23,510 bases of DNA from a virus: the IMG/VR virus record IMGVR_UViG_3300032316_000614, positions 1 through 23,510 of that record, one strand, 5' to 3'. Both the position numbers and the translations under genes were made by a program. The notes under the pieces are model-generated. The model did not search any database. It worked only from the letters and a program-made list of their open reading frames with translations, and was not told the DNA's origin. Positions 2,348 through 22,295 of this stretch are shown one piece after another. Every line of letters starts with the position of its first letter. Within the stretch, counting starts at the first letter, position 1.

Positions 2348-3079
2348 ATGGTTTACTCGCTTCACATCGGAATTAATAAGTACAGCGTAAGCGAATACGG
2401 CGAAGGTGCGAACTTGACGCAATGTGTGCGCGATGCGTATGTGCTTGCTGAAATTGCGCGCACGAAATTTAACTCAAGCAATGCGCGCGTACTTGCAGAT
2501 GAATTTTGCACGCTCGCGAACATCAAGCACGAACTTACGAAATACGCGCACCTGATGAACGCAAACGATGTACTGCTTTGCACGCACAGCGGACACGGCA
2601 CGTATCACGATTATCAGGGAACGCGCGCAACGGGTGTATGCGCGTATGATGGTGTCTTTTGGGATTTTCAGTTGTTTCCATTTTGGAAACAGTTTAGAGC
2701 AGGCACGCGCATTGTCCGGCTGATTGACACCTGTTATTCTGAATCCAATTTCAGGGCTGCACAGCCATTAGGCCGAACACGTTTTATTCAGATGCCCAAA
2801 GCGCCTGTAATAAAGCCGACTACCAACAAGATGGCCGAAGTTCGATGCAGTATCATATCTGTAAGCAGCAGCACGGTAAAGCAACCATCATACGAGAACG
2901 ACAAGGGCGGCGTGTTTACATTGGCGCTGGAGGAACTATTCAAGCAAGACGCTATACCAACCTACAACGAACTGCATAAGTTCACCACAGGGCAAATAAA
3001 CGCGTGGAAATACCCACAGACACCACGACTGGAGGCGCACAATGCCGGACAGTATAAGGCAAAGAAGTTTTTAACCTGA
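2348..3079 (+). CDS. Caspase-like cysteine protease (peptidase C14 / metacaspase type)
   Basis: This 243-residue protein is a nearly bare caspase domain. Seen: a first beta strand LHIGINKY (residues 5-12), a CVRDA helix start (26-30) typical of meta- and orthocaspases, the catalytic His in HSGHG (H83), and the catalytic Cys in LIDTCYSES (C129). D127 sits two residues before the Cys, the position that in metacaspases helps select Arg/Lys in the substrate. A p10-like segment follows (ISVSSSTVKQ and GGVFTLALEEL, about residues 175-200). Family knowledge: such enzymes cleave after basic or acidic residues and often mediate regulated proteolysis or cell death. There is no signal peptide, so it should act in the cytoplasm. 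It lies between tail and lysis genes, which suggests virion-protein maturation or a lysis/host-killing role; neither is shown. Confidence 0.85.
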   Translation: MVYSLHIGINKYSVSEYGEGANLTQCVRDAYVLAEIARTKFNSSNARVLADEFCTLANIKHELTKYAHLMNANDVLLCTHSGHGTYHDYQGTRATGVCAYDGVFWDFQLFPFWKQFRAGTRIVRLIDTCYSESNFRAAQPLGRTRFIQMPKAPVIKPTTNKMAEVRCSIISVSSSTVKQPSYENDKGGVFTLALEELFKQDAIPTYNELHKFTTGQINAWKYPQTPRLEAHNAGQYKAKKFLT

Positions 3080-4282: not shown

Positions 4283-4831
4283 ATGTTTGCAAAACAGATC
4301 ACGCCTGAATTTTACCGCGCACTTGCAAAGGCATTGAAATCTGCCAGGTTCACGCCTGTGCAGGAGCAGGCACCGAAGTTGATTGCAGAGAACTGCGACC
4401 GCTTCATCATCACCGACAAAAGGATGTTTGCCTATATGCTGGCTACTTGTTGGCATGAATGCAGATTCAAGCCTATACGCGAATTTAGAGCGGCTGAAGG
4501 CCATCCGGTAAGGCAGATGCAAGACAGGTACTGGAACACGGGATACTTCGGGCGCGGATACGTTCAATTGACATGGAAGAGAAACTATCAAATTTGGAGC
4601 GACATTACGGGCGCTGATTTGGTGAATTTTCCCGATAGGGCGCTTGAACCAACCATCGCTGCCTTTGTTTTGGTCAAAGGCATGAACGAGGGACTGTTTA
4701 CAGGTAAGCGCCTAAGTCAGTATATTAACGCCGAAAGGTGTGATTACTTCAATGCCAGGCGAACGGTTAACGGCGTATTCCATGCCGACATAATAGAAAA
4801 AGCAGCCAAAGCCATAGAGGCTGTTTTGTAA
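4283..4831 (+). CDS. GH19-family endolysin (muramidase/chitinase-like)
   Basis: The 182-residue protein fits glycoside hydrolase family 19, used by many phages to cut peptidoglycan. Seen: the helix carrying the probable catalytic acid in ATCWHECRF (E59), and the signature GYFGRGYVQLTWKRNY (about residues 87-102), followed by a helical C-terminal part. There is no signal peptide, so release by the holin-like protein encoded just upstream is expected. The open frame extends upstream to 4169, but that part (including a Cys/Pro-rich stretch) overlaps a promoter and hairpin, so the ATG at 4283 is preferred. A strong terminator follows at 4868. Confidence 0.85.
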   Translation: MFAKQITPEFYRALAKALKSARFTPVQEQAPKLIAENCDRFIITDKRMFAYMLATCWHECRFKPIREFRAAEGHPVRQMQDRYWNTGYFGRGYVQLTWKRNYQIWSDITGADLVNFPDRALEPTIAAFVLVKGMNEGLFTGKRLSQYINAERCDYFNARRTVNGVFHADIIEKAAKAIEAVL

Positions 4832-8009: not shown

Positions 8010-8029
8010 TTCGATTTATTTTGCATAAC

Positions 8030-8053
8030 GCCCGACCTGAAAGCAGGTCGGGT
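8030..8053 (+). terminator. Perfect hairpin, possible weak terminator
   Basis: CCCGACCTG at 8031-8039 pairs perfectly with CAGGTCGGG at 8045-8053 around AAAAG. No T tract follows, so termination would be weak or factor-dependent. The stem core nearly repeats the terminator at 4868. It separates the early small genes from the IbrA cassette. Confidence 0.5.
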
Positions 8054-8063
8054 AGGACGAGGT

Positions 8064-8095
8064 TTGTTTAGATCAGCCAGAAGATGTAAATTTTC
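8064..8095 (+). promoter_or_regulatory. Probable promoter for the IbrA cassette
   Basis: TTTG at 8064-8067 and TAAATTTT at 8088-8095 are 20 bases apart, one base off the TAnnTTTG consensus. The predicted RNA would start near 8100 and carry a short upstream open frame (ATG at 8110, seven codons, TGA at 8131-8133) just before the ATG at 8136. Confidence 0.5.
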
Positions 8096-8135: not shown

Positions 8136-9452
8136 ATGAAAAAATATATTGACGTCAATGTTTATGACGCAGCCAATGAAAGAATTGATTTCATATTTAA
8201 GAACTTTGAGAAAATATACATATCTTTTTCAGGCGGAAAGGATAGCGGAGTAATGCTTAATCTTGTAATTGATTACATGAGAAAAAATAGCATCAACAGC
8301 AAGGTAGGTATTATGATACTTGATAATGAGGCTAATTATGAGCATTCATTGAATTTTATGCACGACATAATTAGAAAAAATCTTGACATACTTGATGTTT
8401 ATTGGTGTTGTATGCCAATAACACTGCCATGTACGGTAAGTGCATACGCTACAGAATGGCAATGCTGGGGGGTAAAAGATGAAAAAAGATGGATAAGGCC
8501 AATGCCGACTGACTCATACATTGTAAACATCAATAACCATCCGTTTCCCTGGTTTATTGAGAATATGAGTTATGATGAATTTTGGGATAAATTCGGCGAA
8601 TGGTACAGCGAAGGAAGCAAAAAGACAGCCTGTCTTATCGGCATACGCGCAGATGAAAGCCTGAATAGATACCGGGCTATTTTGAACGAGGATAAGACCA
8701 TGTTTATGGGTAAAAGCTGGACAAAAAAGAAGACACACAATAATGACTTTGTTTACAATTGTTATCCAATATACGATTGGAAAACAAAGGATATTTGGGT
8801 GGCAAATGCTCGCATGGGATGGGACTATAACAAGTTGTATGATATATTCTACATGGCAGGGCTTACAATTGCACAAATGAGGGTTGCGTCACCATTTATG
8901 TCAGAGTCAAAATCTTCGCTTAATTTGTACCGTGTAATTGATCCTCACGTGTGGGTAACTTTGTGCGCACGCGTTCAAGGTGCAAATTTTATTGCTACTT
9001 ACGGAAAGCAAATAAATTACCACAGTTTTAAACTTCCAAATGGTCACACTTGGAAATCTTTTGTAAAGTTCCTTTTAAGCACTTTGCCAAAAGAGGTTTC
9101 AGAAAATTTTAAGGCTCGGTTTATTCAATCAATTCTATTCTGGGGAAGGGTAGGCCGAGGATTACCGGAAGAAGTAATTTCAGAACTTGACAAGCATGGA
9201 GTTCAATACACAATTAACGGCTTAACCCCTCACGGATCAGGAAATAAAAGAAGGGTTCGCATTCAATCAATGCCCGATCATCTTGATTCACTTTCGTTCC
9301 ACAATTCAGAGGTTGCAAGCTGGAAAAGATTTGCAATAACAATCTTGAAAAACGATCACACGTGCAAGTATATGGGGCTTGCACCTACAAAGGAGCAAGC
9401 TGCCAGGCAGCGCGAAATCATGGAAAAGTACAAAAACATTGAACAATTTTAA
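8136..9452 (+). CDS. ibrA: IbrA-like PAPS-reductase-family protein (DUF3440)
   Basis: The 438-residue protein has the PP-loop SFSGGKDSG near its N-terminus (residues 31-39), the ATP-pyrophosphate-binding motif of the adenine-nucleotide alpha hydrolase / PAPS-reductase superfamily. Further on are IGIRADESLNRYRA (about 170-183) and YPIYDWKTKDIW (about 209-220), both typical of the family. The C-terminal end, CKYMGLAPTKEQAARQREIM, matches what I know of DUF3440/IbrA proteins. Biochemical role is uncertain: family members activate substrates with ATP, and relatives take part in sulfur transfer, including DndC in DNA phosphorothioation. In E. coli, IbrA works with the ParB-domain protein IbrB in gene regulation. 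A cupin gene and an IbrB-like gene follow. An upstream TTG at 8130 is less likely than the ATG at 8136. The gene is AT-rich relative to its neighbours. Confidence 0.88.
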   Translation: MKKYIDVNVYDAANERIDFIFKNFEKIYISFSGGKDSGVMLNLVIDYMRKNSINSKVGIMILDNEANYEHSLNFMHDIIRKNLDILDVYWCCMPITLPCTVSAYATEWQCWGVKDEKRWIRPMPTDSYIVNINNHPFPWFIENMSYDEFWDKFGEWYSEGSKKTACLIGIRADESLNRYRAILNEDKTMFMGKSWTKKKTHNNDFVYNCYPIYDWKTKDIWVANARMGWDYNKLYDIFYMAGLTIAQMRVASPFMSESKSSLNLYRVIDPHVWVTLCARVQGANFIATYGKQINYHSFKLPNGHTWKSFVKFLLSTLPKEVSENFKARFIQSILFWGRVGRGLPEEVISELDKHGVQYTINGLTPHGSGNKRRVRIQSMPDHLDSLSFHNSEVASWKRFAITILKNDHTCKYMGLAPTKEQAARQREIMEKYKNIEQF

Positions 9453-9464
9453 ACACACAAAAAA

Positions 9465-9863
9465 ATGAAAGTTCGCACAATTAAAAGCATCACACACACG
9501 GAACGCCATGTAATTGGCGTAGGTTTTGAATCATTAAGAATTGTCCTGGCAAAGGATGATATTGGATTTTCCGTTCACAAAACAGTAATACCAAAAGGCC
9601 CTGCAAGGCATTGGCATTACAAACACCACAAAGAGGTGTGTTATTGCATTCAGGGGCGCGGAATACTTACAAACCTTGAAACCGGAGAAACATTTAAGAT
9701 TGTGCCTGATACGGCGTACATTCTTGACAACCACGACAATCACACGTTTCAGGCAATTACAGATGTTGTGTTGATTTCTGTTTTTAATCCACCCGTAACC
9801 GGACATGAACTTCATGATGAAGATGGCTCATATCTGCCTGCTAAAAAAATGCTAAACCTGTAA
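9465..9863 (+). CDS. ectC: Ectoine-synthase-like cupin (EctC family)
   Basis: The 132 residues align along nearly their whole length with L-ectoine synthase, a small iron-dependent cupin that cyclises N-gamma-acetyl-diaminobutyrate. Seen: FSVHKTVIPKG (35-45), HWHYKHHKEVCYCIQGRG (49-66), AYILDNHDNH (84-93) and the C-terminal signature FNPPVTGHELHDEDGSY (107-123). The residues expected to bind iron, E57, Y85 and H93, are all present, as are R25, T40, Y52, H55, F107, E115 and H117 that I recall as substrate-pocket residues; residue 21 is Phe where Trp is usual. No ectA or ectB is in the window, so this is a solitary copy. It sits 12 bases after the IbrA-like gene and 11 before the IbrB-like gene, so it probably works with them on another small substrate. 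Confidence 0.82.
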   Translation: MKVRTIKSITHTERHVIGVGFESLRIVLAKDDIGFSVHKTVIPKGPARHWHYKHHKEVCYCIQGRGILTNLETGETFKIVPDTAYILDNHDNHTFQAITDVVLISVFNPPVTGHELHDEDGSYLPAKKMLNL

Positions 9864-9874
9864 ATCAATCTGAC

Positions 9875-10561
9875 ATGAACGATAAAATAAAATTACTCGC
9901 TGATCAATTGGCCGCTGAAATAAACGGCATTGATAACGTTGATTCTAAAATTGACGTGCTGAATGAAGTGCGTAAGACATTGCACAATGTAAGCCCGCTA
10001 AAACACCATCCGGTTGATTGCGTGTTTTGGGAAAAGAGTTCAAATGTTGAGGCGAATGAATACAACCCGAATGCGGTTGCCCCTCCCGAAATGGCCCTTT
10101 TAAGGCAGTCAATCGTAGAGGATGGATACACTATGCCAATTGTTGCGTACAGGGGTGAAATAATCAAGATTGTTGACGGATTCCACAGGCGGCAAACAGA
10201 GCGCAATAATCCCGAGGTAAGCGCTTCTACATTTGGCCGTGTTCCATTGACGCAAATAAGAACTTCGCAAGAAGGTCAAGGAGAAAGGATGGCATCTACA
10301 ATCAGGCACAACAGAGCAAGGGGATCACACAATATTGAATTAATGTCAACCATTGTGGCGGAACTTGTTGAAATGGGAAAAGGTGACAGATGGATATGTC
10401 AGCATCTTGGAATGACAGCAGATGAGCTTTTGCGCATGAAGCAGATAACTGGGCTTGCTGCATTGTTTCAAAATGACAGCTTTTCAAAGTCATGGGAAGT
10501 TGAAGGCCATGATGATGGTTTAGATGTAATTGAATTTGAAAATTCAGGATTTGATGATTAA
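9875..10561 (+). CDS. ibrB: IbrB-like ParB/sulfiredoxin-domain protein
   Basis: The 228-residue protein carries a ParB-type N-terminal domain: NEYNPNAVAPPEMALLRQSI (about 61-80), GYTMPIVAY (84-92), VDGFHRRQ (100-107) and STIRHNRARG (141-150). DGFHRR corresponds to the nucleotide-binding GxxR-type box and RHNRARG to the second ParB motif. A helical part with a possible HTH follows (ICQHLGMTADELLRMKQITG, about 174-193). The ParB fold can bind or hydrolyse CTP/ATP. Partnering with IbrA/DUF3440 proteins is well known for this subfamily. The gene overlaps the next one by 8 bases. Its exact activity in phages is not known to me. Confidence 0.85.
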   Translation: MNDKIKLLADQLAAEINGIDNVDSKIDVLNEVRKTLHNVSPLKHHPVDCVFWEKSSNVEANEYNPNAVAPPEMALLRQSIVEDGYTMPIVAYRGEIIKIVDGFHRRQTERNNPEVSASTFGRVPLTQIRTSQEGQGERMASTIRHNRARGSHNIELMSTIVAELVEMGKGDRWICQHLGMTADELLRMKQITGLAALFQNDSFSKSWEVEGHDDGLDVIEFENSGFDD

Positions 10562-10949
10562 CCAGGTTTGGGTGCATTACGAAAAATGGGAATGCTACAA
10601 AAATGGAATGTGGAGGAAATTGCCAAAAGCCGATGCAAATGATATGCTCGCTTTAGCGATTGAATTTACAGGAAATCATGTTGATTACGGAATGGCCATG
10701 CGGAAAGTGATTTTTGCATGGCCCAATTCCATCAAAAATGCGCTCACAAACGTATCAATCAATCAAAGAGCATACGTAGGGCATTGCGCCGCTTGCTATG
10801 CGCACGGCATACCTGAATACATAACCCGTAAGGCTTGGGGTTTTTTAACTGATGAACAAAGATGCCTTGCTGATTTGCAAGCATCAATTGCAATAAATCA
10901 CTGGAAACTTTGGTATCAATCAGCCGGACAATTGAAATTTGAATTTTAA
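10554..10949 (+). CDS. Small conserved protein of the IbrA/IbrB cassette
   Basis: The 131-residue protein (ATG at 10554, overlapping the IbrB-like stop by 8 bases) starts VWVHYEKWECYKNGMWRK and has a His/Cys-containing helical region, RAYVGHCAACYAHGIPEYIT, followed by TRKAWGFLTDEQR and a Trp-containing helix. I have the impression that this type of small protein accompanies IbrA/IbrB pairs in phages, but I cannot name a domain. H-C-x2-C-x2-H (residues 84-91, approximate) could bind a metal. An ATG at 10530 would also be in frame but lies deeper in ibrB. Confidence 0.65.
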   Translation: MINQVWVHYEKWECYKNGMWRKLPKADANDMLALAIEFTGNHVDYGMAMRKVIFAWPNSIKNALTNVSINQRAYVGHCAACYAHGIPEYITRKAWGFLTDEQRCLADLQASIAINHWKLWYQSAGQLKFEF

Positions 10950-10950
10950 A

Positions 10951-11208
10951 ATGCAAAAAGAAATTGACAAGTACATTAATACGTGGGAGCAAAGATGTTA
11001 CAAACGCTTCATTCCTGATGAAGCGCCAAAAGACATTGAGCATCTTGTTCCGTCTTACAAATTGATTGCAAAAGCAATTTTGAGCAATAATTTGTCATTG
11101 CTTGGAATTGAACAAAAGCCATGTGTTTCTTACGCTGAAATAAAGAGAGCCGAAATAGTGCAGCGAAAAAGAAAAGCAGGCCAACCGATTCAATTGACAT
11201 TTTTTTAA
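10951..11208 (+). CDS. Small hypothetical protein closing the IbrA/IbrB cassette
   Basis: This 85-residue basic protein reads YINTWEQRCYKRFIPDEAP early on, then VPSYKLIAKAILSNNLSLLG, and ends IQLTFF. It begins one base after the previous stop; the TTG at 10939 is a weaker start. Its AT-rich composition matches the cassette and contrasts with thyX, which follows 9 bases later. Small proteins of this look occur beside IbrA-like genes in my recollection, with no known function. Confidence 0.6.
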   Translation: MQKEIDKYINTWEQRCYKRFIPDEAPKDIEHLVPSYKLIAKAILSNNLSLLGIEQKPCVSYAEIKRAEIVQRKRKAGQPIQLTFF

Positions 11209-11217
11209 CAACACACC

Positions 11218-11859
11218 ATGCCACAACAACCCAACAAGGTGGAACTCATAGGGCATTACGGAAGTGACGAGATAATCGCGCTAAGTGCCTGGACTTCCAC
11301 ATCACGCGACCTGACACCGGAGAAACGCGACCGGATACCTGAACTCATACAAAAACTTTGGACATCGGGCCATAAAACGCCATTTGAGAAAGGCGCAGTT
11401 CATTTCCTTGTCACAACCGACATCGCAACGCACATTCACCTGCTTAAACACCGCATTGCTTCTATAAATGCGGAATCAGCGAGGTACAAAGAGATAAAAC
11501 ACGATGGGTATTATGTTCCGCATGACTTTGCAGGAGGCAAACAGTATGATTTCTGGACAGATGCGCTAATCGAACACACGGAGCGCGGTAATCAACTCTA
11601 CCATCAGTACCTGGCAGAGATGACACCCGTAATCGGACGCAAACGCGCAAAGGAGGTAGCGCGTTATTTCAAGTCATACAACAGTCGGATAACAGCGGAT
11701 GTCATGTTCAATATGTCCAGCTTTGCAAACTTCATCAAATTGCGAACAGCAGATGATGCGCAAAAAGAGATTCAGCAGGTCGGCGTACTTATGTGGGATG
11801 CCGCGCAAAGCATTGAGGGAAACCCGTTTCAACACACACTAAAAGCGATTGCGCAATGA
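11218..11859 (+). CDS. thyX: Flavin-dependent thymidylate synthase ThyX
   Basis: The 213-residue protein has the ThyX signature: KHRIASINAESARY (residues 77-90) corresponds to RHR-x7-S, with Lys in place of the first Arg, and FANFIKLRTADDAQKEIQ (about 169-186) is the second conserved block with the dUMP-binding Arg. Length is typical. Role: converts dUMP to dTMP using methylene-tetrahydrofolate, FAD and NADPH, raising thymidylate for phage DNA synthesis. Its stop overlaps the next gene by 4 bases. The R-to-K change at the first motif position is seen in some functional-looking phage copies as far as I know, so activity is still likely. Confidence 0.92.
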   Translation: MPQQPNKVELIGHYGSDEIIALSAWTSTSRDLTPEKRDRIPELIQKLWTSGHKTPFEKGAVHFLVTTDIATHIHLLKHRIASINAESARYKEIKHDGYYVPHDFAGGKQYDFWTDALIEHTERGNQLYHQYLAEMTPVIGRKRAKEVARYFKSYNSRITADVMFNMSSFANFIKLRTADDAQKEIQQVGVLMWDAAQSIEGNPFQHTLKAIAQ

Positions 11860-12080
11860 AAAAACTCACACCGCAACAGTCACTCGATGACCTGACTAAT
11901 GAGTATATGATTATGGTCACAATACTTGATAAGGCAGGCGTGTACAACGACACAACCAAAGCAGCCACATCCCGATTCAAAGATGCAGCATTCAGGCACG
12001 GAAAGCAGATGCAGGTGTTTGGGCATTTGGATGCCTTGCAAGATGAAATTTACAAAAGAAAGCATGAACTTGAAAGGTAG
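11856..12080 (+). CDS. Small hypothetical protein coupled to thyX
   Basis: The 74-residue product is helical and charged (for example QSLDDLTNEYMIMVTILDKAG, split around residue 10-28, and a Lys/Arg-rich end). It overlaps the thyX stop by 4 bases, so it is translationally coupled. No motif is recognised. It is the last gene before the structured RNA region at 12153. Confidence 0.55.
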   Translation: MKKLTPQQSLDDLTNEYMIMVTILDKAGVYNDTTKAATSRFKDAAFRHGKQMQVFGHLDALQDEIYKRKHELER

Positions 12081-12152
12081 CATCACCTTCCTGACATCAG
12101 GAAAACGATACAATTGATCAAAAAAATTCAGCATACAGGAATAAACTTCCAT

Positions 12153-12160
12153 TATCTTTG
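12153..12160 (+). promoter_or_regulatory. Promoter -7 box before a structured RNA
   Basis: TATCTTTG at 12153-12160 is a full match to TAnnTTTG and identical to the boxes at 4244 and 19012. The -33 region is poor (TTC at 12127, 23 bases upstream), so it may need an activator. An imperfectly placed inverted repeat TTCCTGA-CA-TCAGGAA at about 12088-12103 lies upstream and could be an operator. Confidence 0.55.
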
Positions 12161-12163
12161 TAC

Positions 12164-12310
12164 TGCCTTCAGAGGCCGCCGAACTGGTAATCCGGCGTAT
12201 CAAAGAGTAATTCAATAATTCAAAAACGCCTGTGACGGGCGGGTCTGCGCTTTATACTCTTTCTGCGCAATGGCAAACCAAAGCCGCCCACCGTCACAGG
12301 CGTTTTTTTA
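12164..12310 (+). ncRNA. Candidate structured leader RNA / attenuator before the replication genes
   Basis: No gene occupies 12081-12322. From the predicted RNA start (about 12164) the sequence can form a hairpin CGCCG (12177-12181) / CGGCG (12193-12197). Then comes the strong stem CCTGTGAC (12229-12236) / GTCACAGG (12293-12300), continued inward by GGGCGG / CCGCCC and followed by a run of T. The stem's loop holds TACTCTTT (12255-12262), an exact 8-base complement of AAAGAGTA upstream (12202-12209), so a pseudoknot is possible. CCGCC at 12176-12180 can also compete for GGCGG. The terminator ends only about 14 bases before the ATG at 12323, which has no other promoter. I read this as a regulated leader or a free small RNA; no known Rfam class is recognised. 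Confidence 0.55.
12222..12310 (+). terminator. Strong terminator hairpin before the replication operon
   Basis: AACGCCTGTGACGG (from 12225) pairs with CCGTCACAGGCGTT (to 12304) around a large structured loop of about 50 bases, followed by a T run at 12303-12309. The AACGCC/GGCGTT outer extension makes this one of the most stable stems in the window. The long loop is unusual for a plain terminator and supports a regulatory role. Confidence 0.75.
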
Positions 12311-12322
12311 TTTGCAAAAACA

Positions 12323-12574
12323 ATGGCCAAAGCGATTAGTACGAAACCGCGCCTATTCTTCTCTGTGCATGATAGTATTTTTGATGGATGGGATTCTCAT
12401 GGTGGTGCACATCATCCATTAACAATTGCTGTCTATGCTTTCATCTGTTACAATTACGGAGTTGTTGACACACGTAAAATCAAGAAGGCGTTTAAGCATG
12501 AAAATGCAGAAGCGATTGACAATGCACTATACGCGCTTGAAGTGTATAAGTTGATAACCATCGTAAACAAATAA
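12323..12574 (+). CDS. Hypothetical protein at the head of the replication operon
   Basis: The 83-residue protein reads PRLFFSVHDSIFDGWDSHGG, then TIAVYAFICYNYGVV, and ends in a helical charged segment (KKAFKHENAEAIDNALYALE) and YKLITIVNK. The last part looks like the end of a winged-helix domain, as in replication-initiation helper proteins. The next gene, 6 bases downstream, is a clearer HTH protein. No catalytic motif is seen. The call of function is by context. Confidence 0.55.
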   Translation: MAKAISTKPRLFFSVHDSIFDGWDSHGGAHHPLTIAVYAFICYNYGVVDTRKIKKAFKHENAEAIDNALYALEVYKLITIVNK

Positions 12575-12580
12575 CCCAGC

Positions 12581-12841
12581 ATGGAACTTCCAAAACACAT
12601 TACCGTTCTTCCTGCAGACATCAGATACCGGACGGATTTAACACCGTTTGCGCGTGTGCTATATTCGGAGATATTTTACCATGAACTACAATTCGGATAC
12701 TTCTGCGTTTCAAATACTCAAATAGCTGAATGGTATAATTGCACAACAGACACGGTTTCAAGGACAATATCAGAACTCAAGAAGGCAGGGGTAATCATGT
12801 TGTCTTCTAAAAAACCAAGATCATTCATTACAGTACGTTAA
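12581..12841 (+). CDS. Winged helix-turn-helix protein (replication-initiator type)
   Basis: This 86-residue protein is almost entirely a winged-helix domain: PADIRYRTDLTPFARVLYSE (first helix), VSNTQIAEWYNCTTDTVSRT (turn and recognition helix, about 45-64), ELKKAGVIML (third helix) and a wing ending in FITVR. The same layout occurs in the N-terminal domain of phage replication initiators and plasmid RepA/HTH_36-type proteins. The larger replication protein encoded 22 bases downstream has a similar domain, so the two may be relatives or partners at the origin. Confidence 0.7.
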   Translation: MELPKHITVLPADIRYRTDLTPFARVLYSEIFYHELQFGYFCVSNTQIAEWYNCTTDTVSRTISELKKAGVIMLSSKKPRSFITVR

Positions 12842-12862
12842 CCCAAGAAATAACCATCAACC

Positions 12863-13855
12863 ATGAGTACAGTAGTAAACAAATCACCGCGCAAAGGCTT
12901 TACAGCCATAGATAACAACGCAGTCAGGGACAACCGATTGAGGCTCAAAACACGCGGGCTTTTGGCCTACATTATGTCGCTTCCACCTGGATGGACATTA
13001 AACTTGCAATGGCTGCAAAAACAGACAGGCGAAGGCCGTGAATCAATACAGGGCTGTTTCAAAGAGCTGTCAATTTATGGCTATGCAAAGCTGCTAAAGT
13101 CTCAAAACGAAAGCGGACAGTTTAATGGTTCAAGATGGACGGTTACGGATGTGCCTGGCAACTTCGGGGAAGATCAGGATGAAGCTGAAAGCGCTTTTTT
13201 TGGGCAAAATATCGAATCCGACCAACTTTCAAAGCGACAACCGGAAAACCCGATGGCCGGAAAAGCCATCTGTGTAAATAATAATAAAGAGTATAGTAAT
13301 AAAGAATATAAAAAAGAAAGAGAGAGAGAAGCACTCTCTGAAAAACCGAAATCCAACTTTTCAAATCAACCGGAGAACGACACGGTTAACCCGATGCTTT
13401 CAAGACCAACATTTGATCAGGTAATTTTTGCGGGCGCTAAATTAATGCCCGTTGAACCCTTGCCTTCGGAGAACCCCTTTAATGAACGGGAACGGGCCGC
13501 CACATATTACGAAAATTCACAATATGTTATTCAGCAGGGAGAAAAGTACACGACCGATTCAGATTTAGTTGCTGTGATGGCCAACTATTACCGGAACAAC
13601 CCACAGGAATACAAGGTCGGCATCCTGCAGGACGCTAAGGGCACACGCTTCACACCTGAACAGATCAAAGACTTTACCGTCATGTGGGCGGCGCACGCCA
13701 TCGCAAACAACAAGTACAACCGGACGGCACATCAGTTGCACATGGATTTAAAACGCTGGATACTTCGTGAATCGCAGTACAGCGCAAAGTCCATGAAACA
13801 GGCAGGGAGTGCAGCCGCTCCGGTTGTCAAGAAAAAAACAGTAGATTTCATTTGA
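12863..13855 (+). CDS. Phage replication protein with N-terminal HTH (replisome-organiser type)
   Basis: The 330 residues have an N-terminal winged-helix domain (about 12-95: LKTRGLLAYIMSLPPGWTLN, then QTGEGRESIQGCFKELSIYGY), a disordered charged linker (about 105-190) and a helical C-terminal region (about 215-310) ending in VKKKTVDFI. This matches phage replisome-organiser/DnaD-like architecture: origin binding by the N-terminus and loading of helicase by the rest. The DnaB-type helicase is encoded two genes on. The linker-coding DNA is very AT-rich with iteron-like repeats (13282-13310), as in lambda gene O where the origin lies inside the gene. No catalytic residues are seen. Confidence 0.7.
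   Translation: MSTVVNKSPRKGFTAIDNNAVRDNRLRLKTRGLLAYIMSLPPGWTLNLQWLQKQTGEGRESIQGCFKELSIYGYAKLLKSQNESGQFNGSRWTVTDVPGNFGEDQDEAESAFFGQNIESDQLSKRQPENPMAGKAICVNNNKEYSNKEYKKEREREALSEKPKSNFSNQPENDTVNPMLSRPTFDQVIFAGAKLMPVEPLPSENPFNERERAATYYENSQYVIQQGEKYTTDSDLVAVMANYYRNNPQEYKVGILQDAKGTRFTPEQIKDFTVMWAAHAIANNKYNRTAHQLHMDLKRWILRESQYSAKSMKQAGSAAAPVVKKKTVDFI
13272..13325 (+). other. AT-rich repeat tract inside the replication gene, possible origin
   Basis: Two 14-base direct repeats, TAATAAAGAGTATA (13282-13295) and TAATAAAGAATATA (13297-13310), differ at one base and are separated by one base. They sit in an A-rich tract that continues into a purine run. The tract encodes only a low-complexity linker (NNNKEYSNKEYKKERERE), so its DNA sequence may be under selection. 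Origin function is inference. Confidence 0.4.
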
Positions 13856-13876
13856 ACGACCTAAAACACAAACGAT

Positions 13877-14356
13877 ATGAAATATGTAATAACAGGGCCT
13901 GCTGCATCAGGCAAAACAACCTTTGCAGCCACTTTAGAGGCCAAAGGTTTAAAGCTGGCAAAGGCAATGACCACACGCCCGAAGCGCGGGCCACTTGACA
14001 GGGAATACAATTTTGCAAGCGCCGAAGATGTTAAAAACAGTTGCGAGATATACCACGTGTACAACAGTTGGTACTACGGATTTACAAAGGCACAACTGTT
14101 TGCATCGGATGTATTCATTGCGGGCGCTGAAATGGCGCTCAAACTTCAGGATTACTTTGGGGCTGACAAATGCCTGGTTATCTTCCTGAATGCGCCTGAA
14201 AGCCTGCGAAGAATGCGCCTGAAGTTCAGGGATGACAAAGCCGATGAAGCAGACGAGCGCATAACACGGGATTACAAAGACTATGCGATGTTTTCCGCTG
14301 CGGAGCGCTTTGATATTGAGATTTCCAACTTTACGCTGAATCAGCCGAAATCATGA
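13877..14356 (+). CDS. Guanylate-kinase-like P-loop protein
   Basis: The 159-residue protein starts with a Walker A motif GPAASGKTT (residues 7-15). Next come TTRPKRGPLDREYNF (about 35-49), matching the GMP-binding TTRxxR...Y-F segment of guanylate kinases, a hydrophobic strand ending LVIFLNAPE (about 99-107), and an Arg-rich lid-like helix (LRRMRLKFRDD). Length is a little below cellular Gmk (about 200 residues). Likely activity: phosphorylation of (d)GMP or another nucleoside monophosphate to feed replication. Its stop overlaps the helicase start by 4 bases. Modified-nucleotide kinases of phages share this fold, so the substrate is open. Confidence 0.75.
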   Translation: MKYVITGPAASGKTTFAATLEAKGLKLAKAMTTRPKRGPLDREYNFASAEDVKNSCEIYHVYNSWYYGFTKAQLFASDVFIAGAEMALKLQDYFGADKCLVIFLNAPESLRRMRLKFRDDKADEADERITRDYKDYAMFSAAERFDIEISNFTLNQPKS

Positions 14357-15813
14357 AAGAACCTGTAATCATTGTAAAGGGCACGCCGCCATCTTCGGAG
14401 GAACTTGAGCGTTCTGTCCTGTCAGCGCTCCTGACAGACCGTGACGCAGCAGCCAACATCATGGACATACTTACACCTGATGCCTTTTACAGCGACACAA
14501 ACAGGGAAGTGTACAACTGTATTGCCATGCTGTACAGCAGAGGTAGCGCAATTGATATGCTGACTGTGACAAATGAGGTAAAGAAGTCCGGTAAAGTTGA
14601 CCCGTTCTATGTATCCGAACTTGCTATGATGTTGACAGGAACAGCCAATGCTGAATACTACGCCCGCATATTGACGCAAAAGCAGATCAGCCGTGCCATC
14701 ATCCGCACGGGCATCGAATCCGTCACAGATGCTTTGCAGGAAAAAACAGACCCGATTGAACTACTGGATAAAACGGAGCGTGAAATATACGCCATCGGGC
14801 ACGGGATAACCACAACCGATGCCGTACAGGTCGGACAGGCAGTTCCTGAAATACTTAAGCGGATAGAGAAAGCCGCGCAATCAAAGGGTATAACGGGCAT
14901 TGAAGGTGGCATCAGGCAATTTGACCGCCACACCGGAGGCTTTCAGCAGGGCGAACTGTACATCCTCGCAGGCAGGCCAGGCATGGGAAAAACAGCGCTT
15001 CTTCTGTCATGGGCTTTGAACATCGCGGCATCGGGCGTGCCGGTCGGCGTGTTCTCTTTGGAAATGACAAAGGACGAACTGGTCATGCGCCTGCTGTCTA
15101 TGCTGTCCGGTGTTCCATCGGCAGACATGAAAAAAGGCATGATGGCCGAATCGAAATGGCCCGAACTTATGAAGGCATCAGAGCAACTATCTGCCATGCC
15201 GATGTACATTGACGATGAGGGCGGGCAATCAGCAAGTGCCGTAAGATCACGCGCACGCCGGATGGTGCAGCGTAACAAAGTCCAAGTTCTATTTCTTGAC
15301 TACCTGCAAAAGATGTCAGCGCCTAAGCAGTACGCAGGCAACAGGGAGGCAGAGGTGAATTACAATGTGCAGAGCCTGAAGAATATCGCAAAGGAACTCA
15401 AGCTGCCATTTATCTGCCTGTCGCAACTTTCGCGGGCTGTGGAAAGCAGAGCCGACAAAAAGCCGATACTGTCAGACCTTCGGGAATCGGGAGCAATCGA
15501 ACAGGAGGCAGATATGGTGCTGTTTCTGTGGAGGCCCGAATACTACGGCATTACACAGGATGCGGAGGGCAACGATATGTCAGATGGCTATGTTGAATTG
15601 GATGTAGCAAAGTTCCGGCACGGGCCGACTATGACCATACCGATCAAGTTCATCGGCGAACTTACCAAGTTCACAGACTACCGACATCCGAATGACTTTA
15701 AAGGCATCCAACAAGCGCCTGTGGGCGATTTTAACGCATGGGGTAACGCTATACACGATGCGCCTGTAATATCGCAGCACAGGCCAAATTTGGACGTTGA
15801 AATACCGTTTTAA
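14353..15813 (+). CDS. dnaB: Replicative DNA helicase, DnaB family
   Basis: The 486-residue protein has the full DnaB layout. The N-terminal helical domain begins at SSEELERSVLSALL (14-27). After a linker, the RecA-like domain opens with GGIRQFDRHTGGFQQGELYI, followed by Walker A GRPGMGKTA (about 207-215), GVFSLEMTKDEL (about 233-244), Walker B VLFLDYLQKM (about 311-320), LSQLSRAVESR (sensor region, about 355-365) and SDLRESGAIEQEADMVLFLW (about 374-393). It unwinds DNA 5' to 3' at the phage replication fork. The length is normal for DnaB. No separate primase is seen in the window, so the phage may use the host primase or one encoded elsewhere. Confidence 0.95.
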   Translation: MKEPVIIVKGTPPSSEELERSVLSALLTDRDAAANIMDILTPDAFYSDTNREVYNCIAMLYSRGSAIDMLTVTNEVKKSGKVDPFYVSELAMMLTGTANAEYYARILTQKQISRAIIRTGIESVTDALQEKTDPIELLDKTEREIYAIGHGITTTDAVQVGQAVPEILKRIEKAAQSKGITGIEGGIRQFDRHTGGFQQGELYILAGRPGMGKTALLLSWALNIAASGVPVGVFSLEMTKDELVMRLLSMLSGVPSADMKKGMMAESKWPELMKASEQLSAMPMYIDDEGGQSASAVRSRARRMVQRNKVQVLFLDYLQKMSAPKQYAGNREAEVNYNVQSLKNIAKELKLPFICLSQLSRAVESRADKKPILSDLRESGAIEQEADMVLFLWRPEYYGITQDAEGNDMSDGYVELDVAKFRHGPTMTIPIKFIGELTKFTDYRHPNDFKGIQQAPVGDFNAWGNAIHDAPVISQHRPNLDVEIPF

Positions 15814-15823
15814 AAGCCGACAC

Positions 15824-16861
15824 ATGAAACATATATCACTATTTTCAGGTATCGGCGGCTTTGACCTGGCAGCGGAATGGATGGGATGGGATAACATTGC
15901 ATCCTGTGAAATCAATCCGTTTTGTAATCGCACACTTGCTCATTATTGGCCGGATGCATATCACCACGATGACATTCACACTTTAACCTTTGATTTACTC
16001 AATGAAAAAATCAGCAAAAAATATCCCGACTGGCAATCAGATGACATTATTCTCACCGGAGGATTCCCTTGTCAACCCTATTCACAAGCAGGTAAACGGC
16101 TTGGAAAGGAGGACAGCCGCCATTTGTGGCCCGAAATGCTTAGAGTTATACGAGAGGTCAGGCCGCGCTACATCGTTGGGGAAAATGTTAGCGGCCTTGT
16201 TAATTGGTCAGACGGATTGGTATTCGAGGAGGTGCAGGTTAATTTGGAGAATGAAGGGTACGAAGTACAGGCGTTTGTACTTCCAGCTTGTGCCGTTGAC
16301 GCGCCGCACCGGAGAGACAGGGTTTGGTTTATTGCCAACCGTAACAGCACATCAACAAAACACCCAATTCAAACAGGGGGGAACTTGTTTGCAAGCAAAA
16401 GCGGTTCATGGACTACTTCCAACGCCGACTGCAATGGACAGCAGTGGGGCAACAGCAAACATGAAATCAACGCAGGTCAAAGAGGGGAGTATGCACAGCG
16501 TGACGTTGAGCAGAGCGTTAAGTATGGGACTACTTCCAACGCCGACAGCAAACGATATGAAAAATGCAACGCTTCCAAAATCTCAATTAACGAGAGATGG
16601 AGGGATGATAAAATATGTAATGAATTCAATGCTTCCAACTCCAACAACCAGGACGCGAACGGAATAGAACACTCTCCGTCACAGAAAAACAAATCACATT
16701 TGGCGGCAGATATAGGCACGATGTTTCAGGAAACACATGGCAAAACTTCCCAACTCAATCCCCGGTTTGTGCTGGAAATGATGGGATTCCCGCCCGATTG
16801 GACGGAATTACCTTTCCAAAATGGAGAAACGAAAGTATCAAAGCAGCCGGAAACGCCATAG
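15824..16861 (+). CDS. dcm: C5 cytosine-specific DNA methyltransferase
   Basis: The 345-residue protein has the ordered motifs of the family: SAM-binding LFSGIGGF (6-13), catalytic GGFPCQPYS (C83), VGENVSGL (motif VI, about 118-125) and DAPHRRDRVWFIA (motif VIII, about 159-171). The C-terminal motif IX/X region is LNPRFVLEMMGFPPDW. The target-recognition region between them (about 172-310) is low-complexity, rich in Asn, Ser and Asp, with repeated TTSNAD blocks. It likely protects phage DNA from host restriction; the target sequence cannot be read from this. The upstream in-frame codon at 15797 lies inside dnaB, so ATG 15824 is used. A long +1 open frame overlaps it (16002-16667). Confidence 0.92.
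   Translation: MKHISLFSGIGGFDLAAEWMGWDNIASCEINPFCNRTLAHYWPDAYHHDDIHTLTFDLLNEKISKKYPDWQSDDIILTGGFPCQPYSQAGKRLGKEDSRHLWPEMLRVIREVRPRYIVGENVSGLVNWSDGLVFEEVQVNLENEGYEVQAFVLPACAVDAPHRRDRVWFIANRNSTSTKHPIQTGGNLFASKSGSWTTSNADCNGQQWGNSKHEINAGQRGEYAQRDVEQSVKYGTTSNADSKRYEKCNASKISINERWRDDKICNEFNASNSNNQDANGIEHSPSQKNKSHLAADIGTMFQETHGKTSQLNPRFVLEMMGFPPDWTELPFQNGETKVSKQPETP
16002..16667 (+). CDS. Overlapping +1-frame open reading frame inside the methyltransferase gene
   Basis: A 221-codon frame starting ATGAAAAAATCAGC lies wholly inside dcm, one base ahead in phase. Its product is basic and protein-like: QMTLFSPEDSLVNPIHK, SLGKMLAALLIGQTDWYS, LIWRMKGTKYRRLYFQLV and then repeated LLPTPTA blocks (LLPTVTA, LLPTPTAMD, LLPTPTAND, MLPTPTT). 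I recognise this kind of sequence from Bacteroidota phage and prophage proteins, where it is sometimes annotated beside or as part of a methyltransferase. The repeated LLPTPTA blocks are the same DNA as the TTSNAD blocks of the dcm frame. It may be a true overlapping gene or a shadow of the repeats; function is unknown. Confidence 0.45.
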   Translation: MKKSAKNIPTGNQMTLFSPEDSLVNPIHKQVNGLERRTAAICGPKCLELYERSGRATSLGKMLAALLIGQTDWYSRRCRLIWRMKGTKYRRLYFQLVPLTRRTGETGFGLLPTVTAHQQNTQFKQGGTCLQAKAVHGLLPTPTAMDSSGATANMKSTQVKEGSMHSVTLSRALSMGLLPTPTANDMKNATLPKSQLTRDGGMIKYVMNSMLPTPTTRTRTE

Positions 16862-19827: not shown

Positions 19828-20601
19828 ATGGGAACTTTAGCCACAACCGGAATCACATTCAAACAACTTCACCATCAGGCAGCCCCGAATATCGGGCTGC
19901 GTGCCTGGCAGGTCAAGGTAAAGAAAATCACAGGCGCTTACGATGGCAACGCCATTGCTACGCCCGATCAGATAAACGCCCTGCTATCAGCAGGCGCAAA
20001 GAGGATTCATACGATTCATACAGCTTCTACTAAAGCAGCAAAGGTTAGCTATTCCCATCGGCAACAGCCGGAATCAAAAGCGGTTCCGGCTGAACCTTTG
20101 GAAGCAACCAAAGTGCAGCCTGAAGTGCATCCTGAATTAAAGCCTGAAGCGCAACAGTTTGAACAATATCAGCCATACGAACCGGAGCCGCTGAATTGGC
20201 AACTGTGGGCTGTACTGGTATTCTCACTCGGTTGCAGCGTGCCAAATATGTATTCTGTAGCGCTTCAAATGAAAGACAGCGCATTCCTCGCAATGGCAAT
20301 AACCGCCACGTTCACAATCAGTCCAATGTTACTACTTACATCTGAGAACCGAACAGCGCGCATTGCAGCGTTCATCCCAATCGCCATTGAAGTATTCGCC
20401 AACACAGCGGGCTATTATGGCAACCTTTTGTCTATAACAGTAGGCAGCGACATCATCACGCCTGGTAAGTTCCTGAACATGGTTATGCAGATGGCAGGCA
20501 CAGGCGCACGCGGAACGGCTTTATTTTTGGCACTTATGATGGCAGCCGCAATTGCTGCAATGTCGGTAGTGTCAGTTCACTCTATAATTAAAAAAGCATG
20601 A
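19828..20601 (+). CDS. Multi-pass membrane protein with a long cytoplasmic N-terminus
   Basis: The 257 residues begin with a soluble segment (1-120). It contains a small folded-looking part (about 20-65, IGLRAWQVKVKKITGAYDG) and a Pro/Glu/Gln-rich linker (about 75-120). Four hydrophobic segments follow (about 124-145, 153-170, 179-197 and 225-248), ending HSIIKKA. No transporter motif is seen. The gene overlaps the next, a membrane-anchored lysozyme-like protein, by 4 bases, which suggests the two act together at the inner membrane. Confidence 0.65.
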   Translation: MGTLATTGITFKQLHHQAAPNIGLRAWQVKVKKITGAYDGNAIATPDQINALLSAGAKRIHTIHTASTKAAKVSYSHRQQPESKAVPAEPLEATKVQPEVHPELKPEAQQFEQYQPYEPEPLNWQLWAVLVFSLGCSVPNMYSVALQMKDSAFLAMAITATFTISPMLLLTSENRTARIAAFIPIAIEVFANTAGYYGNLLSITVGSDIITPGKFLNMVMQMAGTGARGTALFLALMMAAAIAAMSVVSVHSIIKKA

Positions 20602-21392
20602 AACAGGACATTGATGACGCGCACTATGAGGAACTGTCAGGGCGCGTTCAAAGGACAAATCAGCCGCCTCCATTCCTGACAAAGCGATTTGTCATTGTGG
20701 GTGCAATCACAGCACTCGCATACAACTACGCCACCAAAGAGCGCGAAAGCCGCGATGTACTTGCATTCACAGATCAGCCTGAAGAGGATACGCAGTTCGG
20801 ACTGATGGCAACAGCGCCTGAAGCCAAAGCAGCCGCGAAAGTGCCGGAGCAGACAAACGGCCACGACTTGTTCAAGTACGTTATGCTGGAAACAAAGCGA
20901 AGAGAGGCGTTAGGCAGGCGCGGTAAAGAACTGGAATCATACATGGATGGTGATTCACCTGCCATCGGGTACGGTAACCGCATCAAATATCTGCCTGCCA
21001 AATGGAAGCAGGTGGTAGATGAACAGGGGTACAAAGTGACGGAAGCACAAGCGAGGGCGATGATGTACGATACCTTTGATAGTCTCAAAGAAACCATTAG
21101 CGCCGACCTGCCACATCTTGACCGTCACGAATTGTGGGCGGTTCAATCGCTTGCTTTCAATTGGGGCTATGGTAACGTCAAGCGATCACCGCTATATCAG
21201 CACCTGAAAGCCGGAAACAAAACGGGTGACGCACGCCGTGCCTGGATGAAATGCCACGCAGCCACCGATAACCACAGGACAAGCAGACGGTTTGAGTGGG
21301 CGCTTTATACCGGAGATTTCAAAGAGGCAAAAAGGTACGCTGACAAGGCGTACAACAGTATTGCCGGACGTGGTGACTTGAAACATTATTGA
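20598..21392 (+). CDS. Membrane-anchored GH24 (T4-lysozyme-like) protein, catalytic Glu displaced
   Basis: The 264-residue protein has an N-terminal membrane segment (about 31-44, FVIVGAITALAYNY), a linker, and a C-terminal T4-lysozyme/GH24-like domain (about 95-235). Seen: ESYMDGDSPAIGYGN (113-127), matching the AYxDxxGxxTIGYG block, VTEAQARAMMYDTF, and LWAVQSLAFNWGYGNVKRS. In active members a Glu lies seven residues before the Tyr of that block; here it is Arg (R108). E103, E111 or E113 could replace it, or the protein may only bind peptidoglycan. It is separate from the GH19 endolysin at 4283 and not in the lysis module. Confidence 0.65.
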   Translation: MKQDIDDAHYEELSGRVQRTNQPPPFLTKRFVIVGAITALAYNYATKERESRDVLAFTDQPEEDTQFGLMATAPEAKAAAKVPEQTNGHDLFKYVMLETKRREALGRRGKELESYMDGDSPAIGYGNRIKYLPAKWKQVVDEQGYKVTEAQARAMMYDTFDSLKETISADLPHLDRHELWAVQSLAFNWGYGNVKRSPLYQHLKAGNKTGDARRAWMKCHAATDNHRTSRRFEWALYTGDFKEAKRYADKAYNSIAGRGDLKHY

Positions 21393-21396
21393 CGCT

Positions 21397-21609
21397 ATGG
21401 AAGATTTGATTAATCTCAACTTTTGCCATAGTGATGGATCTGGATCAGGATGCGGTTTTAGCTCAGGATCTGGCAACGGCTACGGATACGGCAATGGTAG
21501 TGGCAGCCGCGGAACCCACTACGGAAGTGGAACTGGATCAGGATTTGGATACAGCTACGGAAATGGCAGCGACAACGGCATTAGTAATTCTTTTGGTGAC
21601 GTAGAATAA
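21397..21609 (+). CDS. Gly-rich X-Gly repeat protein 1
   Basis: The 70-residue protein starts MEDLINLNF and then is mostly Ser/Gly, Tyr/Gly and Asn/Gly dipeptides; 21 of 70 residues are Gly and aromatic residues recur (FGYSYGNG, GYGYGNGSG). Codons for Gly are mixed, so the array is not a recent expansion. The N-terminus resembles those of the two following repeat proteins (M-[EQ]-[DS]-L-I). No signal peptide. Such [G/S]-Y-[G/S] composition resembles low-complexity proteins that phase-separate, which is inference. Function unknown. Confidence 0.7.
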   Translation: MEDLINLNFCHSDGSGSGCGFSSGSGNGYGYGNGSGSRGTHYGSGTGSGFGYSYGNGSDNGISNSFGDVE

Positions 21610-21618
21610 AAACAGGCA

Positions 21619-22140
21619 ATGCAAGACTTAATCAGACAAGGTTCAGGGCATGGCCATGGAAACCAAAATTGCTACGGAAACGGTTATGGAGATGGTATGT
21701 CTTCAGGCACTTACGAAATGATGAGTCACGGATCGGGAAGTGGTGAAAGTAACGGAATTCAAAACGCACGGTCAATTGGCTGGAGTGTTGAATTAATAGA
21801 GAAAAGAACAAAACAATTCACAACCAAACACACAAATAACATGGCAAGCATGATTAACAAAATTTGCATCATCCGCTCTTATGAAAGCGGTGTTCACTTA
21901 GGAGAAGTACTTGAAACACGCGACACAATTCACGGACTATCCGTAACACTCAAAGATAGCCGCCGCGTTCACTACTGGGAAGGCGCTGCTTCATTATCGC
22001 AAATGGCGCTTGATGGCATCAAAACCGGACGTATCGCAATGGTGCTGCCTGAAATTCAGGTAGAGAACGTCTGCGAAATCATACCGATGTCAGAAGCCGC
22101 AATTGATAACATGAAAAAGCAGCCGATATGGAGAGTTTGA
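21619..22140 (+). CDS. X-Gly repeat protein 2 fused to a small conserved domain
   Basis: The 173-residue frame begins MQDLIRQGSGHGHGNQN, with a Gly/Ser/Tyr-rich segment to about residue 47. From residue 75 comes a folded domain (INKICIIRSYESGVHLGEVLE, split around 78-98; RRVHYWEGAASLSQMALDG at about 114-132; then a VLPEIQVENVCEIIP strand). That domain resembles small phage proteins of the DUF6948 type, as I recall them. The ATG at 21841 gives a 99-residue protein preceded by an A/C-rich leader nearly identical to the one before 22333. So the domain may be its own gene, and the repeat part may be a separate small gene that lost its stop. It overlaps the next gene by 13 bases. Confidence 0.65.
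   Translation: MQDLIRQGSGHGHGNQNCYGNGYGDGMSSGTYEMMSHGSGSGESNGIQNARSIGWSVELIEKRTKQFTTKHTNNMASMINKICIIRSYESGVHLGEVLETRDTIHGLSVTLKDSRRVHYWEGAASLSQMALDGIKTGRIAMVLPEIQVENVCEIIPMSEAAIDNMKKQPIWRV
21815..21835 (+). repeat. A/C-rich leader element, copy 1
   Basis: Matches 22300-22320 at 20 of 21 positions (AATTCACAA, C or G, CAAACACACAA). Here it lies inside the open frame of the repeat protein 2 just before an ATG at 21841, which suggests a real translation start there. Confidence 0.55.
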
Positions 22141-22295
22141 TTAAGATTCGCTCCGGCTCCGGCTCCGGCTCCGGCTACGGCTCCGGATACGGCTCCGGCG
22201 ACGGCTCCGGATACGGCTCCGGCGACGGCTACGGCTACGGCTACGGCTCCGGCTCCGGCTACGGCTCCGGCTCCGGCTCCGGCTACGGCGAATAA
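22128..22295 (+). CDS. X-Gly repeat protein 3 (55 residues)
   Basis: ATG at 22128 opens a 55-residue frame: MESLIKIR, then 23 X-Gly dipeptides (Ser, Tyr or Asp before Gly), then Glu and stop. It overlaps the previous stop by 13 bases. Almost every Gly codon is GGC and the variable codons are TCC, TAC or GAC, so the array is uniform and probably young. The N-terminal MESLI matches MEDLI and MQDLI of the two preceding proteins. The other strand also has an open frame here, but with no sensible start or context. Function is unknown. Confidence 0.7.
   Translation: MESLIKIRSGSGSGSGYGSGYGSGDGSGYGSGDGYGYGYGSGSGYGSGSGSGYGE
22152..22289 (+). repeat. Hexanucleotide array (TCC/TAC/GAC + GGC or GGA)
   Basis: Twenty-three 6-base units encode the dipeptide array of repeat protein 3. 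A 24-base block is perfectly duplicated in tandem (22182-22205 and 22206-22229). Replication slippage or unequal recombination would easily change its length. Confidence 0.9.

Follow-up and report, generated by a model that had tools for sequence, protein, structure and literature searches.

A conserved phage gene cassette linking IbrA and IbrB with an ectoine-synthase-type cupin

Ectoine synthase (EctC) carries out the ring closure that yields the osmoprotectant ectoine. We analyzed a gene for a cupin of the EctC type that stands between the genes for IbrA and IbrB in a viral record of 23,510 nt (IMGVR_UViG_3300032316_000614, positions 1 to 23,510; this whole stretch of DNA is called here the window). 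Together with genes for two small proteins, sm4 and sm5, they make up a cassette (Table 1) whose five proteins are genetically inseparable across a broad set of phages and are partly fused to one another.

Table 1. Genes of the cassette and features upstream of it (window coordinates)
Feature	Position	Strand	Characteristics
IbrA	8136..9452	+	PP-loop (PAPS reductase / FAD synthase / CysD fold) and DUF3440; clade-specific CC-x6-C-x10-C (C91, C92, C99, C110)
EctC-like cupin	9465..9863	+	metal ligands E57, Y85 and H93 kept; Phe for Trp21; Cys59 and Cys61 after E57
IbrB	9875..10561	+	ParB/Srx-type NTPase domain (DGFHR motif), HTH-like C-terminal part; cupin-fused in 27 relatives
sm4	10554..10949	+	conserved all-helical protein (predicted); without Pfam family or PDB fold match; also beside some cupin-less IbrAB pairs
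sm5	10951..11208	+	by profile alignment, free-standing homologue of the DUF3440 C-terminal piece (IbrA profile ~363-425)
Inverted repeat (hairpin)	8031..8052	+	perfect 9-bp stem, 5' of the cassette, without T run
Candidate Bacteroidota-type promoter TTTG-N20-TAAATTTT	8063..8094	+	not better than chance

All five genes follow one another in the same direction, spaced by 12, 11, -8 and 1 bases, and the gene for ThyX follows after 9 more. The tight packing at 8136-11208 described in an earlier note on this DNA, made from the letters alone, thus holds with its coordinates. The assignment of the first and third genes to the IbrA/IbrB pair was borne out as well: IbrA matches DUF3440 (E 1.1e-58), PAPS_reduct (E 1.2e-11) and phrog_2302 (E 5e-108), and IbrB matches the ParB-like phrog_2159 (E 1.4e-63). 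The cupin is complete, as had been claimed; it aligns to Ectoine_synth (PF06339) over 125 of 127 positions (E 2.9e-45) and scores above the cut-off of NCBIfam NF009806.

The window copies of sm4 and sm5 gave no family match of their own in profile scans. PF11922 is matched by 13 of 14 sm5 relatives and not by the window copy; the alignment of sm5 to the IbrA profile nevertheless identifies it, at the level of sequence, as a detached relative of the C-terminal DUF3440 piece. Likewise, Pfam ParB_N is matched in 12 of 17 IbrB relatives and not by the window copy. The predicted model of sm4 (predicted local distance difference test score, pLDDT, 95.8) has no convincing relative in PDB (Foldseek best E 2.4; Z <=3.7), although a missing match does not prove a new fold; BFVD yielded one clear match, another viral protein, and no Pfam family is consistent across sm4 relatives.

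Linkage of the five genes across phages

Starting searches with the cupin as query returned one close viral relative, and those with IbrA returned 31 loci. Alignment-based scans of IMG/VR gave 198 cupin and 404 IbrA relatives, the best 80 of each being retained, and profiles for all five proteins were run on every collected locus. The cupin is present in 99 of the 154 distinct IbrA loci examined; the set was gathered partly via the cupin itself, and the IbrA-led scans, which are its unbiased part, give the same split. Every one of the 99 cupin-bearing loci has IbrB, and 91 have both sm4 and sm5. Seven gene orders were observed (A, IbrA; C, cupin; B, IbrB; 4 and 5, sm4 and sm5): A-C-B-4-5 in 69 loci, A-C-B in 8, 4-5-A-C-B in 7, A-C-4-5-B in 6, C-B-4-5-A and B-4-5-A-C in 4 each and A-4-5-C-B in 1. 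Grouping of the five genes is far beyond chance, and linkage kept despite shuffled gene order argues for shared function.

In the IbrA tree, 97 cupin-linked proteins form one clade (support of 100 in the Shimodaira-Hasegawa-like approximate likelihood ratio test, SH-aLRT). The cupin is found at none of the 55 remaining loci; 54 of these lie outside the clade, and the other one (L022; L numbers are our locus labels), the sole clade member counted without a cupin, sits on a contig that ends just after its IbrA gene. Since sm4 occurs beside 18 of the 55 cupin-less IbrA loci too, it is probably an older partner of IbrAB.

Cupin and IbrB are encoded in a single open frame in 27 of the 99 loci. This fusion is not merely an assembly effect, because it is present also in the isolated Mycobacterium phages Gaia and Nebkiss. 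Rarer fusions join sm4 to sm5 (two loci), sm5 to IbrA (L141) and, at a cupin-less IbrAB locus, IbrB to sm4 (L190); between them, the fusions link up the whole set of five proteins. A count of the co-occurrence of IbrA, cupin and IbrB had been set beforehand as a check on the proposal of a common system. With 99 distinct loci, one IbrA clade with no intact member lacking the cupin, and 27 fusions, the view that the cupin shares a system with these two proteins is well supported, and we regard it as nearly certain that the five genes are one functional unit. Accidental insertion of the cupin gene was ruled out by the 99 linked loci, the seven gene orders and the 27 fusions.

Among the best 80 cupin matches in GTDB genomes, the cassette was found at one, on a contig of a metagenome-assembled genome of Planctomycetota (L191), indicating that it is rare in cellular genomes.

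The earlier note had presented a cupin between IbrA and IbrB as an arrangement not met before. This stands for the open-access literature, in which we found no paper on an association of cupin and ParB; it does not stand for GenBank, where the cupin-IbrB product of phage Gaia, and of Pseudoalteromonas phage XCL1123 as well, bears the name 'ectoine synthase/ParB multidomain protein'. Both phages carry the same cassette, from IbrA to sm5, annotated by name alone; in Gaia, one gene (gp104, beside IbrA gp103) encodes both cupin and IbrB, and gp105 is an additional, inserted gene. As far as open-access literature shows, the cassette is a variant of IbrAB that annotators have met and that has not been described or explained.

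The inserted Gaia gp105 (L034:8197-8571) is a free-standing gene that is also present in Nebkiss, where it is annotated as GIY-YIG-like. At L110:4666-4980, IbrA and cupin are separated by a gene that looks like GIY-YIG; the cluster of this gene occurs in four cupin loci. Homing endonucleases may target the cassette.

The wider IbrA/IbrB pair (PF11922 DUF3440 plus a ParB-like protein; YbdN/YbdM in E. coli) consists of the same linked core proteins and occurs in phages and prophages, while the cassette clade is marked by the cupin, by the free-standing sm5 (in most loci) and by the cysteine motif of IbrA. In phages the pair is annotated as prophage co-activators; a study touching E. coli YbdN/YbdM assigns no biochemical role to it (PMC9068703).

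The cupin and IbrA compared with known enzymes

The cassette cupin belongs over its full length to the family of EctC (PDB 5BXX, 5ONM-5ONO). In a tree of 176 cupins, the 98 cassette cupins group in one clade (support 100/99), separate from the 77 cellular EctCs and from a further sequence (L036). In 97 of the 98, the three metal ligands (E57, Y85, H93) are retained along with the substrate-side residues S23, R25, T40 and Y52. Position 21 differs: it is Trp in 77/77 cellular EctCs, and 98/98 cassette cupins have Phe, Gly, Met or Leu there. The Paenibacillus enzyme uses Trp21 to hold its substrate and, as the W21A variant, retains 9.7% activity; the residue is conserved in 437 EctCs of ect clusters and also in 145 orphan EctCs, some of which have it shifted by two residues (PMC6344544). 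Val59 is replaced by Cys59 in 98/98 cassette cupins (0/77 cellular EctCs have this Cys), and Phe95 is fixed within the clade. We tested for ect partners with the signature motif of EctB, which was present at 72 of the 77 cellular loci and near none of the 98 cassette cupins. Because the metal and catalytic residues are kept, Trp21 is lost and no EctB lies nearby, the cassette cupin probably performs EctC-like chemistry on a substrate other than the ectoine precursor. A second, phage-specific job of EctC-type cupins is thereby indicated.

Contamination by cellular ectC as the origin of these cupins was ruled out by the separate clade and the loss of Trp21. The further sequence, L036 (MT835761), is from a gut scaffold labelled 'Bacteriophage sp.' in GenBank; it carries ectB and an ectC with Trp21, groups with cellular EctC and is most likely bacterial DNA (a cellular ectBC piece) inside a phage collection.

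The predicted model of IbrA (mean pLDDT 89) has a PP-loop fold like that of 3'-phosphoadenosine 5'-phosphosulfate (PAPS) reductase over residues ~3-282. The nearest fold is the PAPS domain of flavin adenine dinucleotide (FAD) synthase (Z 15.9; root-mean-square deviation 3.3 over 173), followed by CysD (Z 15.2) and by PAPS and adenosine 5'-phosphosulfate (APS) reductases (Z 14-15). Motifs SGGKDS, GIRxxESxxR and PIYDWxxxDIW are present, and the catalytic ECGxH motif of CysH was found in none of 154 IbrAs. The absence of this motif led us to reject sulfur metabolism of the CysH type, and we infer that IbrA more likely activates a substrate in an ATP-dependent reaction than takes part in sulfate assimilation. 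The motif CC-x6-C-x10-C occurs in 91/99 cupin-linked IbrAs versus 1/55 other IbrAs and is possibly a metal or Fe-S site, to judge from its cysteine pattern.

Some viral genes tallied as PAPS reductases, i.e. as auxiliary metabolic genes (AMGs) of sulfur metabolism, may be DUF3440 IbrA genes.

Possible function of the cassette

Among 145 neighbour proteins of diverse cupin loci, the commonest Pfam families are DnaB, ERF, YqaJ, helicases, RecT, Rad52, SSB and Toprim (primase-type), and a few C5 methylases are included. Outside the cassette no neighbour cluster exceeds 16 of the 99 cupin loci; the cassette therefore sits in many unrelated phage backgrounds. Such a replication and recombination setting fits a nucleic-acid target, and retention of the EctC catalytic residues together with loss of Trp21 agrees with chemistry of the EctC type on a different substrate. 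We think it fairly probable that the cassette acts on nucleic acid or nucleotides. Our tentative reading is that of a phage system, centred on IbrA/IbrB, which chemically modifies a nucleotide or nucleic acid, the likeliest being the phage's own DNA after replication; for DNA modification specifically, the case is close to balanced without quite reaching that point. The earlier note's suggestion that the cupin works on an intermediate produced by the PP-loop enzyme, with DNA modification, anti-defence or regulation as the outcome, is at present a hypothesis.

In such a system, IbrA would activate the target by PP-loop-mediated, ATP-dependent adenylation of one of its carbonyl or phosphate groups, and IbrB, with its ParB-type nucleoside triphosphatase (NTPase) domain and helix-turn-helix (HTH)-like part, would hold or select DNA. 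The cupin, delivered on IbrB (by fusion in the 27 cases), would close a ring on the activated or substituted group, or remove water from it, by metal-assisted chemistry like that of EctC. Proteins sm4 and sm5 might be structural or substrate-handling subunits on the IbrA side, and protection against host restriction or defence would be the likely benefit. A more specific version is rather doubtful, although conceivable: the adenylating PP-loop enzyme and the DNA-bound ParB-type protein would present a base group to the ring-closing, EctC-derived cupin, and this new phage hypermodification would yield a ring-bearing base (cyclic amidine-like or sulfur-containing) not yet described.

Pairing of a DNA-modifying enzyme with a ParB-superfamily partner has precedents in Dnd phosphorothioation, with PP-loop DndC and DndB, and in Dpd, with DpdA, similar to tRNA-guanine transglycosylase (TGT), and ParB-like DpdB; the passages on Dnd and Dpd in PMC10853773 and PMC12839542 mention no cupin, in contrast to the cassette. 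Window IbrA matches DndC models weakly and partially (E 3e-8) and, at 21 bits, stays far below the NCBIfam DndC cut-off of 290. No DndA, DndD, DndE or DpdA was recognised among the window proteins scanned.

Several points weigh against modification of nucleic acid or nucleotides. What was observed directly comprises linkage, fusion, fold and residue conservation, from which target, product and benefit were deduced; action of IbrA on a base or on DNA is a deduction of the same kind. The pair of IbrA and IbrB without a cupin has itself no established function. ParB-type domains occur also in partition proteins, nucleases and kinases. The cysteine motif of IbrA and the co-occurrence of the cupin mark the same single clade and so count as one evolutionary event. 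Finally, no dedicated nucleotide-precursor gene recurs within ~4.5 kb of the cassette, which makes a post-replicative target or a soluble nucleotide likelier than a modified pool of deoxynucleoside triphosphates.

One rival reading is counter-defence, in which the cassette destroys, disguises or binds a small signalling nucleotide or NAD-type molecule that host defence makes, with the cupin binding or altering the ligand and IbrA and IbrB activating it with ATP. Cupin, PP-loop and ParB/Srx NTPase could make a small-molecule toolkit, and the cassette stands among replication genes in phages of distant hosts. Still, a DNA-bound complex would better account for the HTH-like part of IbrB and for the fusion of IbrB with the cupin, profile scans of the window proteins revealed no relationship to signal-degrading or sponge proteins already described, and PADLOC (which covers defence, not anti-defence, proteins) returned weak partial matches to DndC and BrxP alone; we regard this role as unlikely. 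The same HTH-like part could speak for control of transcription, with IbrA and IbrB acting as the prophage co-activators of their historical annotation and the cupin as a ligand sensor as in AraC-type regulators. The cupin does match AraC_binding weakly (E 0.018), and E. coli ybdNM adjoins a LysR regulator (PMC9068703). For a pure sensor, however, the full catalytic set kept by IbrA (PP-loop, GIRxxESxxR and PIYDWxxxDIW) would be needless, as would the metal triad, T40 and Y52 of the cupin, and this explanation appears quite unlikely.

Adenylation and ring closure could also be directed at RNA (tRNA, rRNA) or a host protein, given that the tRNA-modifying PP-loop enzymes TilS, NcsA and TtuA share the fold of IbrA (Z ~10-11). 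No RNA-binding domain was recognised in the cassette proteins, though, and both the ParB-like nature of IbrB and the neighbouring genes for DNA replication and recombination speak against it, so that we rate this idea at least as doubtful as transcription control. We disfavour an auxiliary metabolic role, with IbrA as a PAPS reductase for sulfur assimilation or the cupin making ectoine for the host, and consider it very improbable: viral PAPS reductases have been interpreted as sulfur AMGs (PMC7785012) and the cupin clears the NCBIfam threshold for ectoine synthase, but ECGxH is missing from every IbrA, and no cassette cupin has Trp21 or an EctB neighbour.

IbrA and IbrB are common in phages, and their tight association with a re-purposed ectoine-synthase fold that is still catalytic offers a concrete pointer to the chemistry. 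Phage Gaia, which grows on Mycobacterium smegmatis, makes the system tractable in the laboratory. If DNA is indeed modified, the cassette would represent a new enzyme class for phage DNA hypermodification and restriction evasion.

Other features of the window

Upstream of the cassette, the earlier note had placed a probable promoter at 8064 and a terminator-like hairpin. The promoter did not survive comparison with shuffled sequence: its pattern, TTTG-N20-TAAATTTT, has 2 matches in the window versus 1.9 expected. The hairpin is real: the inverted repeat is perfect and the region 8020-8070 folds as RNA at -20.9 kcal/mol (z -3.7); having no T run, it is not a standard terminator.

We found no nearby phage record for the window; the best matches of its DnaB are 34-39% identical and come from unrelated phages. 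On the 3' side of the cassette, positions 11218-16861 encode ThyX, then a guanylate-kinase-like protein, DnaB and a C5 cytosine methylase, and form a nucleotide/replication module with its own DNA methylase. A caspase-fold (metacaspase-like) protein is encoded at 2348-3079; it matches PDB 3bij (GSU0716) with E 6.5e-10 and has HSGHGT and DTCYS motifs and no Pfam match. The phage has two different lysins: a phage lysozyme at 20598-21392 and, at 4286-4831, a GH19-like protein whose match (E 4.4e-5) falls slightly short of the Pfam cut-off. Three reading frames at 21397-22295 contain strongly Gly/Ser-rich repeats of the GSGSGYGSG type.

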